IMG/VR virus record: IMGVR_UViG_3300042327_000470
Coordinates: 1-35,778 of that record
Strand: one strand, 5' to 3'
Length of the DNA stretch: 35,778 nucleotides
DNA from: a virus
The notes beneath the pieces were generated by a model. That model was not told the origin of the DNA. It did not search any database and worked only from the letters and a program-made list of their open reading frames with translations. Both the position numbers and the translations under genes were made by a program. Shown here piece after piece: positions 31,759-35,598 of the stretch (position 1 is the stretch's first letter; each line of letters begins with the position of its first letter).

Positions 31759-32196
31759 ATGAGAAACCCATTAGCAATTTACGAACAATTAAGCCCGCTT
31801 TACGAGATCAGTAAGGCGGAGCTTAAAAGTCTTGCCAAAGAACAGGCAGACTACATTTTAGAATCTGGATCAAGCGAGAAGGCATTTGCCTTTCTTAAAA
31901 AAATATCAGAATTGATTGATAAAGTAGTTGATGGAATCAAAGATGATGCAATAGAAGAAGTAAGGAAAGGAAACAATCATGCTCATGGCGTAAAAATGAC
32001 CGTAACAGGGAAAACTACCTACGACTACTCGAACGATGCTGTATGGTCAGATTTGAAGGTAAAAATCAAAGAGCGTGAAGACTTCCTTAGGTCAATAAAG
32101 TTTTTCATTGATGTAGTTGACGAAAATACTGGCGAAGTTACGAGAGTGATGCAGGCAGGAAAGAAGGTCACAGATTACATTAAATCTGAATTTTAA
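31759..32196 (+). CDS. Conserved phage protein next to SSB-like gene
   Basis: A 145-residue, mainly helical protein (LSPLYEISKAELKSLAKEQA; a later YDYSNDAVWSDLKVKIKERE). It is 1 nt downstream of the SSB-like gene. Proteins with this helical style often neighbour phage recombination genes but I do not recall a defined activity. Ends in TAATG overlap with a 25-residue peptide frame. Confidence 0.7.
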   Translation: MRNPLAIYEQLSPLYEISKAELKSLAKEQADYILESGSSEKAFAFLKKISELIDKVVDGIKDDAIEEVRKGNNHAHGVKMTVTGKTTYDYSNDAVWSDLKVKIKEREDFLRSIKFFIDVVDENTGEVTRVMQAGKKVTDYIKSEF

Positions 32197-32696: not shown

Positions 32697-32952
32697 TCAA
32701 GTCCGAAAGACCATTTTTGCAAACGGTTAATTTCGGGCATGATAACAATTTCACCTGAATTTTTTGGGTGCGATTGCAAAGGTCGGAGACGACAATAAAG
32801 TTCTTTTAACCGCAAACCAAATGCGAAACAATCAGAGGGGGAAATCCGAATAGTTATAGGGCGAAAGTACGCTGATAGCCAGTACCAAGCTGGCGAGGTT
32901 TCAATGTTGGGTGTAACTTACATGACACTTGGAAATTGTCTTTGCGGTTGAA
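32697..32952 (+). ncRNA. Putative structured noncoding RNA domain
   Basis: No gene is visible between 32682 and 33176. By eye this part folds well: AACCGCAAA (32809-32817) pairs perfectly with TTTGCGGTT (32942-32950), enclosing a GCCAG/CTGGC hairpin (32879-32895). Upstream, GTCCGAAA (32701-32708) pairs with TTTCGGGC (32733-32740, one G-T pair), and GTCG-GAGA-CGAC (32784-32795) is a GNRA-capped hairpin. GC content is higher than in flanking coding sequence. It lies directly before a tRNA-like element and a terminator, so it may be one transcript with them. No known RNA family is recognised. Confidence 0.45.
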
Positions 32953-32961
32953 AAAAAAATG

Positions 32962-33086
32962 GTCAGGTGGCGGAATGGTAGACGCTATTATCTGAAAGGC
33001 TGAATGCGAGTTAGTTTCGATGCTAACGTAGACCTTGGTAGGTAGGAACAGCCACATTACCCGTTCGATTCGGGTCTTGACCGCAA
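32962..33086 (+). tRNA. tRNA-like element with an enlarged central domain
   Basis: The ends fit a tRNA: acceptor GGTCAGG (32962-32968) with CTTGACC (33077-33083, one G-T pair), D-arm GCG/CGC around GAATGGTAGA (32971-32986), T-arm ACCCG-TTCGATT-CGGGT (33060-33076), then G and CA (no full CCA). But the span is 123 nt. In place of an anticodon arm, GGCTG (32999-33003) pairs with CAGCC (33050-33054) and encloses two hairpins (GTTAGT/GCTAAC at 33011-33028; ACCT/AGGT at 33033-33044), a three-way junction. CTGAAAG at 32993-32999 resembles a Phe loop but lacks a stem. It could be a tRNA with an insert, a decayed tRNA, or a tRNA mimic. Confidence 0.5.
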
Positions 33087-33144
33087 GTATTTTCAGGTTT
33101 ATTAGCTAAGATTGGGGCAGGTTCTTCTTGCTCCAACTTTTTTA
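33077..33144 (+). repeat. Direct repeat copy 1 (acceptor 3' strand plus terminator)
   Basis: About 68 nt from CTTGACCGCA through GTATTTTCAGGTTTATTAG to the terminator T tract. It matches copy 2 at 34436-34507 apart from a 3-nt insertion and one C/T change. The two copies flank the gene at 33177-34334. Confidence 0.9.
33113..33144 (+). terminator. Rho-independent terminator, copy 1
   Basis: TTGGGGCAG (33113-33121) pairs with TTGCTCCAA (33129-33137) with two G-T pairs and a 7-nt loop, then a C and six T (33139-33144). It ends the transcript containing the tRNA-like element. Confidence 0.82.
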
Positions 33145-33176
33145 AATGAAAAATTATTTAAATAAATAGATAAAAA

Positions 33177-34334
33177 ATGAAAAATGTACACTTGATACCA
33201 ACGGATAAACCTAGTAGGTTAGGATATTTGACTAAAAAAGGTAAAGAAGTTTTTAAAGATTTAAGATTATTTGATAAACCTATGCCAAATATTTTAGATA
33301 GCGAGAATCAAAACATCTACATCACTTCTGATGAAGAAATTAATGGATTAGAAAATAATATTTGGGTATATAATAATGGTAGAGTTTGGTTATGGGAAAA
33401 TACAATGGCATTAGTTTCTAATAATAAACCAAGAAAAATCATCTTAACAACAGACCAAGACTTAGATGGTGTACAAGCTATTGATGATGACTTCCTTGAG
33501 TTCTTGGTTCAGAATCCGAGTTGTGAGAGGGTTGAGATAAAAGAAAAACAACATTTTGAAGCGGATAAATCTAAAAGAATTAATCCTTTAAATGGGGTTT
33601 ATTATTCTTATAAAATAATCTTGCCCAAAGAAGAGCCTAAACAAGATTACAGTGGTGTTCATTTCAGACATTGTTATCAAGGAGAATACGAAGATAGCTG
33701 TAAGTATGGAGAAGATAATTGTCCTGCAAAACCAAAAGAAGAGCCTAAACAAGAATTTACAACAGTAAATGGCACTTCTGGTTGTACTATTACAGTTACG
33801 GACGAAAAAGGGAAACCTCTTACTTATTGGGGCGGGTTAAAAGAGATTAAATCACATTCATTTTGTGAAACACCAGAAGAAAAATGCACAATGAATTATT
33901 GTGATGAAAATGGTTGTCAAAATAGGAAAAGGCAATTGACAGACCTAGAAATAGCTATAAGATTAGAAGAAATCGAGAGAGAAGAACCTACTCAAGAAAC
34001 TATTGAGGGAGCGGCTGAAAATCATCAAAAAGGAGGTTATGAATGGCAAAATGAAAAGAGGAAATCTTTTACAGCAGGTGCAAAATCTGACGCTGCAAGG
34101 GATTACTGGTTTGAGAAGTTCCAAGAACAAGGCAAGAATAAGTTCAGTGAAGCAGAAAAACCGCAACTGAATATAGGTGCAGTTAGCAGAAGTACTTTCT
34201 TGATGCCTATTAGATGGTTTGAAAAAATGTCTTGCAAGCATAAAAATAAGACTGAAATTTTTAGATGCTACCAAGACAGATATGTTAGTGAAGTATGCAA
34301 TATTTGTGGAAAAGTTATTTACAGCGAATTATAG
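33177..34334 (+). CDS. Modular phage protein with C-terminal zinc ribbon, unknown
   Basis: A 385-residue protein beginning MKNVHLIPTDKPSRLGYL, a start I recall from variable proteins of flavobacterial phages, followed by KKIILTTDQDLDGVQAIDDD-like sequence (about residues 85-105). The linker PKEEPKQ occurs twice (near 151 and 187), matched by repeated DNA at about 33627 and 33734. Cys/His-rich stretches sit between and after them. A GAKSDAARDYWFEKF segment (about 300-314) is followed by a zinc-ribbon-like CKH...EVCNICGKV end. The composition suggests assembly from shuffled modules. It is flanked by direct repeats of an RNA 3' end. Molecular function is unknown. Confidence 0.72.
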   Translation: MKNVHLIPTDKPSRLGYLTKKGKEVFKDLRLFDKPMPNILDSENQNIYITSDEEINGLENNIWVYNNGRVWLWENTMALVSNNKPRKIILTTDQDLDGVQAIDDDFLEFLVQNPSCERVEIKEKQHFEADKSKRINPLNGVYYSYKIILPKEEPKQDYSGVHFRHCYQGEYEDSCKYGEDNCPAKPKEEPKQEFTTVNGTSGCTITVTDEKGKPLTYWGGLKEIKSHSFCETPEEKCTMNYCDENGCQNRKRQLTDLEIAIRLEEIEREEPTQETIEGAAENHQKGGYEWQNEKRKSFTAGAKSDAARDYWFEKFQEQGKNKFSEAEKPQLNIGAVSRSTFLMPIRWFEKMSCKHKNKTEIFRCYQDRYVSEVCNICGKVIYSEL

Positions 34335-34445
34335 CATTTCTGCTAAAAAACATATCCTAACCGTAGGAAGTAGCATAGCTGGGTAATGTAACTAATAGGT
34401 TTGAGTGTACAATCAAATACAGGTTCGAATCCTGCCTTGACCGCA
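34332..34445 (+). ncRNA. Second tRNA-3'-end-like RNA segment, lacking a 5' half
   Basis: It has a T-arm-like CAGG-TTCGAAT-CCTG (34420-34434) followed by the same acceptor strand CTTGACC-G-CA (34436-34445) as the tRNA-like element, but no GGTCAGG-like 5' strand is found upstream. Instead there are small hairpins: TAGCA/TGCTA (34332-34345, including the previous stop codon), TCCTA/TAGGA (34355-34368) and TTTGA/TCAAA (34400-34417). A D-arm-like GCAT/ATGT with AGCTGGGTA loop lies at 34373-34389. Either a decayed tRNA, or a recombined tail of the upstream element. Confidence 0.42.
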
Positions 34446-34507
34446 ACACGTATTTTCAGGTTTATTAGTTAAGATTGGGGCAGGTTCTTCTTGCTCCAAC
34501 TTTTTTT
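34436..34507 (+). repeat. Direct repeat copy 2 (acceptor 3' strand plus terminator)
   Basis: Partner of the repeat at 33077-33144, about 1.36 kb away, with CAC inserted after CCGCAA and T for C in TTATTAGT. Near identity over about 68 nt is far above the background of this window. Confidence 0.9.
34475..34507 (+). terminator. Rho-independent terminator, copy 2
   Basis: Same stem as copy 1 (TTGGGGCAG with TTGCTCCAA, 34475-34499), followed by seven T (34501-34507). Confidence 0.82.
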
Positions 34508-34530
34508 AATGATTTAAACAAAAAACAAAA

Positions 34531-34768: not shown

Positions 34769-35128
34769 ATGAAAGAAACAATTAAAGCAAACGATTTAAG
34801 GATTGGGAATTTTGTCCTAGATAGAGGCAATAAAATATTAACTATTGATAGATTTTGGGGTAATAAAATTGAGTGCGATATTAAAGGAATGCCAGATAAA
34901 TCAGAAAGTGGAATACAAGTGTATTTACATCCATTTACAGAAGATATACATTACTTAATACCAATCCCACTAACCGAAGAATGGCTTTTGAAACTTGGGA
35001 AGATTGATTGGATTTCAAAAGACATAAATGGAATATTTTTTTGGTTTAATGGAGAAAAAAAATACATAAAATTTGTTCATTCATTACAAAATACGTATTT
35101 TTGCATAGAACAAAAAGAATTAATATGA
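34769..35128 (+). CDS. Conserved phage protein, unknown
   Basis: A 119-residue protein with a pattern familiar from Bacteroidota phages: IKANDLRIGNFVLDRGN at the start, IPIPLTEEWLLKLGKI in the middle (about 71-86) and a final KFVHSLQNTYFCIEQKEL. The function of this family is unknown to me. Its stop overlaps the HNH endonuclease start (ATGA at 35125). The C-terminal motif is complete, so the endonuclease has not interrupted it. Confidence 0.78.
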   Translation: MKETIKANDLRIGNFVLDRGNKILTIDRFWGNKIECDIKGMPDKSESGIQVYLHPFTEDIHYLIPIPLTEEWLLKLGKIDWISKDINGIFFWFNGEKKYIKFVHSLQNTYFCIEQKELI

Positions 35129-35598
35129 GACAGTATTTAACAACAAAATATTTTATTTCCAATGATGGTAAAGTTTTAAACTCTAAAACTGGAAGATTTT
35201 TAAAAAATCAAAATAATGGCAATGGTTATGAAAAAATAACATTAACTATTGATGGGGTTCAATGTCAAAAGTTAATTCATAGATTAGTTGCCGATTTATA
35301 TATTCAAAGAGTAAAAGATAAGAATCAAGTAAACCATATTAACGGGATAAAAACCGATAATAGGGTTGAAAATTTAGAATGGTGCAACAATAAAGAAAAT
35401 CAAATTCACGCACACCTAAACGGTTTAAAACAAAATGGAAATAGCCTATGGAATGGTAAGTTTTCTAAAGAAGATATTGAAAAAATAAAAACATTAAAAA
35501 ATAATGGAATGCTTCAATATAAAATAGCTGAAATAATGAATACAACAAAAGGAACAATATCTTTAATATTAAATGGAAAAAGATATAAATATTTATAA
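35125..35598 (+). CDS. HNH homing-type endonuclease
   Basis: A 157-residue protein. The N-terminal segment FISNDGKVLNSKTGRFLK (10-27) resembles a NUMOD4-like module; then QKLIHRLVADLYI (48-60) and VNHINGIKTDNRVENLEWCN (69-88) form the HNH core with His71, Asp78, Asn79 and Trp86. The C-terminal part (FSKEDIEKIKTLKNNG, QYKIAEIMNTTKGTISLIL) is a helix-turn-helix for DNA binding. Such free-standing enzymes are selfish elements in phage genomes. The ATG at 35125 is chosen over a TTG at 35101 since it gives ATGA coupling and removes only eight non-conserved residues. Confidence 0.88.
   Translation: MRQYLTTKYFISNDGKVLNSKTGRFLKNQNNGNGYEKITLTIDGVQCQKLIHRLVADLYIQRVKDKNQVNHINGIKTDNRVENLEWCNNKENQIHAHLNGLKQNGNSLWNGKFSKEDIEKIKTLKNNGMLQYKIAEIMNTTKGTISLILNGKRYKYL

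Follow-up and report, generated by a model that had tools for sequence, protein, structure and literature searches.

A tRNA-like element with no canonical anticodon arm in a tailed-phage contig and a large set of similar elements in viral sequences

The role of the tRNAs carried by phages has been debated for decades, chiefly in terms of codons and anticodon nucleases. For one small stable phage RNA with a tRNA-like end, the species 1 RNA (rnaC) of T4, we know of no function. Evasion of anticodon nucleases has been proposed for phage tRNAs (PMC10264068), and the structured RNAs GOLLD and ROOL adjoin phage tRNAs, with GOLLD being able to contain tRNAs (PMC12286853). The elbow of the tRNA fold is a recognition feature for RNase P and RNase Z, and mascRNA, which has a non-tRNA anticodon arm, is cut from MALAT1 in this way (PMC11693755). 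A minimal E. coli tRNA-Leu devoid of both the anticodon and the variable arm is leucylated given A73 and the D/T contacts (work cited in PMC9976931). Our literature search, which covered mostly open-access papers, found nothing on phage tRNA-like RNAs without an anticodon arm.

The stretch of DNA analysed here (hereafter the window) is a 35.8-kb contig (35,778 nt) of a tailed phage possessing terminase, portal, head protease and tape measure genes. The host is presumably a member of Bacteroidota, since the window also contains a gene coding for a BT4734-type primase. A gene for an HNH endonuclease with a NUMOD4-like motif is located at 35128-35598, close to the contig end.

In a preliminary description a tRNA-like element was reported at 32962-33086; the element is real and lies at 32961-33083, its first base being 32961 and not 32962 (Table 1). 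It was also described as having an intact acceptor, D-arm and T-arm, and this canonical upper half was confirmed, with all arms found and the 7-bp acceptor fully paired (pair 3-70 being U-A). The D-arm resembles that of phage tRNA-Leu genes by sequence comparison, and the stretch between the D-stem and the T-stem is about twice as long as in most phage tRNA-Leu genes. No 5-bp anticodon stem with a 7-nt loop and U33 was detected within this stretch. As regards the Leu identity set, A15, G18G19 and U48 are present and A73 is absent, the discriminator base being G73.

ARAGORN reported neither a tRNA nor a tmRNA in the whole window. When the region was searched alone, the Rfam model RF00005 matched 32961-33083 from end to end with 30.2 bits (E 3e-4), which is barely above the gathering cut-off of 29 bits, and in its alignment a long insertion falls at the anticodon arm; no intron or tmRNA model matched, and a faster Rfam scan of the whole window gave no entry. 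A strict detector, requiring 7/7 acceptor pairs, 5/5 T-stem pairs and a D-stem with GG in the loop, found this element as its single match in the window. Across the window and 42 related loci (numbered with L below), some of which are overlapping contigs, the detector gave 17 matches versus none on the reversed sequences, so the upper half is not a product of chance, and 12 of the 17 matches are invisible to ARAGORN.

Table 1 Features of the tRNA-like locus in the window (all coordinates are those of the window)
Feature	Position	Strand	Description or basis
Conserved structured RNA (5' RNA)	32697..32955	+	Three hairpins, then long-range closing stem TTAACCGCAAA / TTTGCGGTTAA
tRNA-like element	32961..33083	+	123 nt, acceptor to discriminator base; Rfam tRNA 30.2 bits, strict detector
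Acceptor 5' strand GGTCAGG	32961..32967	+	7/7 pairs with CTTGACC 33076-33082, one G-U
Leu-type D-arm GCG(GAATGGTAGA)CGC	32970..32985	+	A14, A15, G18G19, A20a by homology
Middle, in place of anticodon arm and variable region	32986..33058	+	73 nt; last base U48 (33058)
GGCTG, helix b 5' strand	32998..33002	+	Stem of the preliminary description; MFE of element and of middle
Hairpin GTTAGT-TTCGAT-GCTAAC	33010..33027	+	MFE
Hairpin ACCT-TGGT-AGGT	33032..33043	+	MFE
CAGCC, helix b 3' strand	33049..33053	+	T-stem 5 nt further on; MFE
T-arm ACCCG(TTCGATT)CGGGT	33059..33075	+	Sequence, Rfam, strict detector
Acceptor 3' strand CTTGACC and discriminator G73 (33083)	33076..33083	+	Sequence, Rfam, strict detector
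Conserved tail with intrinsic terminator	33084..33149	+	Stem 33112-33136, then T run; terminator-like hairpin
Degenerate tRNA-like 3' half, second copy	34420..34443	+	T-arm CAGG-TTCGAAT-CCTG and CTTGACC-G
Second tail and terminator copy	34447..34512	+	95% identical to 33084-33149

The 5' RNA is 84-98% identical in seven other phage contigs. The RNAalifold consensus has an energy of -60.7 kcal/mol and 73 pairs, eight of which are changed on both sides, as in the stem GCCAG/CTGGC that becomes GCTAA/TTAGC. There is no Rfam match to this RNA, a covariance model of its first domain searched against 41 sources recovered its own lineage only and no distant homologue, and no close copy was detected in named phage genomes. 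It can be considered a candidate new structured RNA of about 260 nt, seen in eight phage contigs with the window included.

In all eight phages carrying the 5' RNA a tRNA-like unit directly follows it, and the tail with the terminator is common to seven of the eight (window counted), being 92-97% identical. The type of unit between these conserved flanks differs. Apart from the window type, there are two Leu-type units in tandem in L008 and L009, copies of this type having an 8-nt T-loop and an insertion in the D-loop; L005-L007 have a short unit with the arm CCCTTACGAGAAGGG; the L003 unit is close to normal, its loop being 8 nt long; and L044 has a unit of the L003 kind, which has no anticodon arm and only 9 nt from the D-stem to the T-stem. 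The acceptor of L003 and L044 is kept paired through two transitions (TCCCGAT/ATCGGGA and TCCCGGT/ATTGGGA). Most of the window lineage possesses G73. Downstream of the homologue of the window gene located at 31759-32196, two more distant phages, L024 and L025 (50-54% protein identity), have a tRNA-like unit at a distance of 77 and 111 nt, respectively. The L025 unit has a middle of 26 nt in which no stem is visible; in most of the other distant relatives no tRNA-like unit was seen.

The spacer between the tandem units of L008 (7560-7705) is hairpin-rich in appearance and contains AAAGTCCAGAGAG; a group I intron was considered there and rejected, having no Rfam support. In the window, the second, degenerate copy has no convincing 5' acceptor strand and was missed by the strict detector. 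The region of about 1.36 kb spanned by the two tail and terminator copies (33084-34512) comprises a tail copy, an ORF of 385 aa (33177-34334) with neither a Pfam nor a PHROG match, and this broken 3' half. Because close relatives have one tail, the region seems to have arisen by insertion or recombination at this feature.

Similar elements were searched for with an exact D-arm and T-arm pattern allowing 46-76 nt in between, in 2.9 million viral contigs and 84,980 genomes. This resulted in at least 120 stretches in the viral contigs and 17 in the genomes, the latter including five from Sphingobacterium as well as others from Saprospiraceae, Chitinophagaceae, Bacteroides and lactobacilli. The window element fits this class, as it has a paired acceptor, a D-arm, a T-arm and a 15-48 Levitt pair, possesses no canonical anticodon arm and is not called by ARAGORN. 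Among the matches listed there are 112 distinct viral elements, for 106 of which ARAGORN is silent and for one of which it calls Leu; for elements with middles of normal length (31-45 nt), it calls an ordinary tRNA-Leu in 72 out of 101. The long middles of the 112 listed elements are hypervariable, with a flat length distribution over 46-76 nt. The elements listed are intergenic and have the same direction as the downstream gene in 105 of 111 cases, and no neighbour gene is common to them, the listed neighbours being unrelated. The acceptor AGTCAGG, present in 57 of the 112 listed elements, marks the odd class: among normal-length elements, 15 of the 22 with AGTCAGG are not called Leu versus 14 of the 79 with other acceptors (p=1e-5). 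Middles of 5-30 nt were found in 27 stretches. A complete scan with a class I D-arm pattern gave 97 stretches, and six to seven acceptor pairs are present in 56 of the 77 distinct analysable elements of that set.

Loci L329-L423 have a class I D-arm and a remodelled anticodon arm and include recurrent subfamilies, e.g. L341/L358/L407. L034 (2432-2560), a tidy member of the class, possesses a 9-bp arm CTCTAATGT/ACATTAGAG whose loop ACTCC is complementary to GGAGT of the variable region; judged by eye, the two could form a pseudoknot. L183 (1500-1720 of LR756501.1, a 735-kb phage) is a tRNA-Leu-like gene with a seemingly interrupted anticodon arm, and the interrupting sequence resembles a group I intron core by eye only.

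Since the search pattern fixes both the D-arm and the T-arm, their conservation provides no evidence, and the three tests of selection rest on positions outside it, namely the acceptor pairing, position 48 and the 15-48 base pair. Seven of seven acceptor pairs are formed in 98 of the 112 distinct viral elements among the matches listed and six of seven in 11 more. The 61 distinct acceptor pairs among these matches have on average 6.72 of seven positions paired, compared with 3.98 (at most 4.46) after shuffling of the partners. U48, the partner of A15, is found in 110 of the 112 non-redundant middles listed. Positions 15 and 48 covary in the remodelled elements of class I type (G-C in 33, A-U in 14, others in 7; p=7e-10). 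Taken together, these observations indicate that the tertiary elbow is maintained though the canonical anticodon arm has been lost, and with the elbow selected while decoding is lost, the class represents neither decay nor introns.

Among the matches listed, one helix has a conserved position in the middle, its end lying 2 nt short of the T-stem (Z 10.6); the variable arm of class II tRNAs stops at about the same point. A further strand that would pair into this helix as a pseudoknot is enriched in the listed elements but not general (20 of 99 at p<=0.05 versus 5 expected), the swap control reaching a maximum of 9.9 against an observed 10.9; in the window copy, the candidate TTATCTG/TAGGTAG was rejected (p 0.49). 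It was suggested in the preliminary description that the middle of the window element forms a three-way junction, with the stem GGCTG/CAGCC enclosing two hairpins. The sequence does contain the stem and both hairpins, and the MFE fold forms them. Nevertheless, the folding energy is not better than that of shuffled sequences either for the whole element (z -0.39), the MFE of which is without the acceptor stem formed, or for the middle alone (z -0.94), and the same middle is absent from all relatives compared. On these grounds the junction by itself lacks support. The central stems, in sequence and fold, are not conserved among relatives, whereas the rest of the element is. The assignment of the stem to the anticodon-stem position, as in tmRNA, is doubtful as well, given that the class helix lies at the variable-arm site. 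The window stem may or may not be this class helix, as 5 nt, not 2 nt, separate it from the T-stem.

Of the three readings offered in the preliminary description, the phage tRNA mimic is the best supported one. The explanation that we prefer, at a probability of about 0.42, is that the element encodes a tRNA-like RNA that descends from a class II (Leu-type) tRNA, does not decode and acts as a mascRNA-like processing module cut by RNase P and RNase Z. The half gripped by tRNA-handling enzymes, i.e. the acceptor stem, the T-arm and the D/T elbow with the 15-48 pair, has been kept, and hypervariable sequence has replaced the anticodon arm. In the window phage, the transcript unit would consist of the 5' RNA, the tRNA-like unit and the terminator; host RNase P may cut at 32960/32961, which would release the 5' RNA and give it a defined 3' end; a cut by host RNase Z after 33083 followed by CCA addition would leave a stable tRNA-shaped by-product. 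Such processing fits because the elbow and the acceptor are the parts read by RNase P and RNase Z, and because a fixed slot from the 5' RNA to the terminator is filled by interchangeable tRNA bodies. The G73 of most of the window lineage argues against leucylation and favours processing there. At the level of sequence, the elbow and acceptor are kept, decoding is lost and the slot holds exchangeable tRNA-like units; transcription, cleavage by the two RNases and processing as the benefit to the phage are what we infer. Most other class members among the matches listed are not located behind the 5' RNA and their contexts are unrelated, which speaks against processing, as does the existence of class I types. 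Furthermore, pure processing tags would need neither a Leu-type D-arm nor A73, yet A73 is present in 91 of the 112 distinct viral elements among the matches listed, in which the Leu type seems over-represented.

The main rival explanation, which we find possible though on the whole unlikely, is that the element is a mimic competent for charging or binding. It would be matured, receive CCA and either carry an amino acid (leucine in the members with A73, which are the majority) or bind to LeuRS, EF-Tu or a tRNA-modifying enzyme, serving as a decoy, a sponge or an amino-acid donor outside decoding, and it would be immune to anticodon nucleases since the anticodon arm is lost, in keeping with the evasion proposed for phage tRNAs. 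The class keeps A73, A15-U48, G18G19, A20a and the D/T tertiary contacts, with which the minimal E. coli tRNA-Leu can be leucylated (PMC9976931), and A73 is kept in 24 of 32 among the listed acceptors other than AGTCAGG. However, leucylation should be weakened by G73, which is found in the window and in most of the related lineage; an anticodon loop would be expected to persist in a decoy for anticodon nucleases; and non-Leu types also exist.

Another reading in the preliminary description was a decaying gene, i.e. an unneeded phage tRNA that received random insertions, with the remainder persisting by chance and bound to be lost later. The hypervariable middles with their flat lengths of 46-76 nt among the matches listed, the 8-nt T-loop and D-loop insertion of the L008-type copies and the plainly broken second copy in the window speak for decay. 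On the other hand, the compensated acceptors, the near-invariant U48 and the 15-48 covariation extend over more than 100 elements, and a tRNA-like unit is found at one syntenic position in phages of about 50% protein identity. We hold decay to be improbable and disfavour it for the class as a whole; the single window copy may be decaying.

It is less probable still that the unit is a structural domain of a larger phage RNA comprising the 5' RNA and the tRNA-like part, not excised from it and comparable to the linker tRNAs of GOLLD. The constant adjacency in 8/8 phages and the precedent of GOLLD and ROOL near phage tRNAs are in its favour, but no Rfam match to either was found, and the unit is swapped wholesale with the 5' RNA unchanged, so no specific contact between the two is conserved. 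Least credible of all is a decoding tRNA with an odd but working anticodon arm or a removable insert, such as the intron suggested in the preliminary description: despite the apparently interrupted tRNA-Leu gene of the huge phage (L183) and the near-normal L003 unit with its 8-nt loop, no group I or II intron was matched by Rfam in the window or the region, no insert can be placed in the window so that its flanks read as a 17-nt anticodon arm, the 73-nt middle is below the size of group I introns, and the L044 and L025 units are armless or have a short linker.

The product of the window gene is probably an RNA that uses the tRNA-handling enzymes of the cell without reading codons. More broadly, we give about even odds to a widespread and so far unrecognised phage class of non-decoding tRNA-like RNAs, with the elbow and acceptor under selection and the anticodon domain turned into a hypervariable module, a pseudoknot in some members, by which the tRNA enzymes of the host would be engaged in a role outside translation. 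If this is true, a large set of phage tRNAs retains the tertiary fold without being able to decode, and phages put the tRNA body to another use as well; ARAGORN is blind to nearly all of the class among the matches listed, and the 15-48 covariation offers a clean testable sign of real elements. In our judgement, this is a large group for which no earlier description was found, and it belongs to a known kind, phage tRNA-like RNA, rather than to a new category.

As for the known systems, tRNA-Leu (class II, RF00005, 30.2 bits) has in common with the window element the acceptor, D-arm (GCGGAAT-GGTAGACGC), T-arm and A15-U48; unlike tRNA-Leu, the element has no anticodon arm, a 73-nt middle, G73 in place of A73 and no ARAGORN call. 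tmRNA also has a tRNA-like end and a long stem replacing the anticodon arm, but the window element has a D-stem, no G3-U70 and only 123 nt, and no tmRNA was found in the window by ARAGORN or Rfam. GOLLD and ROOL are likewise structured phage RNAs beside tRNA genes; here there is no Rfam match to them, and the 5' RNA of about 260 nt has its own fold. The T4 species 1 RNA is similar in being a small stable phage RNA with a tRNA T-arm and a tRNA-like 3' end, whereas its acceptor is only partly paired, no D-arm is recognisable by eye, and it is unrelated in sequence and comes from another phage group. The minimal E. coli tRNA-Leu constructs cited in PMC9976931 have the acceptor, D and T arms without the anticodon arm and are leucylated given A73, but they are engineered, and the window copy has G73. 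In mammals, mascRNA and menRNA (from MALAT1 and MEN-beta) are tRNA-like RNAs lying on the 3' side of a structured non-coding RNA; they keep the elbow and acceptor, while their anticodon arm is not tRNA-like. The phage element, which has a class II D-arm, no homology to them and only putative RNase P processing, likewise keeps its elbow and acceptor beside a structured non-coding RNA.
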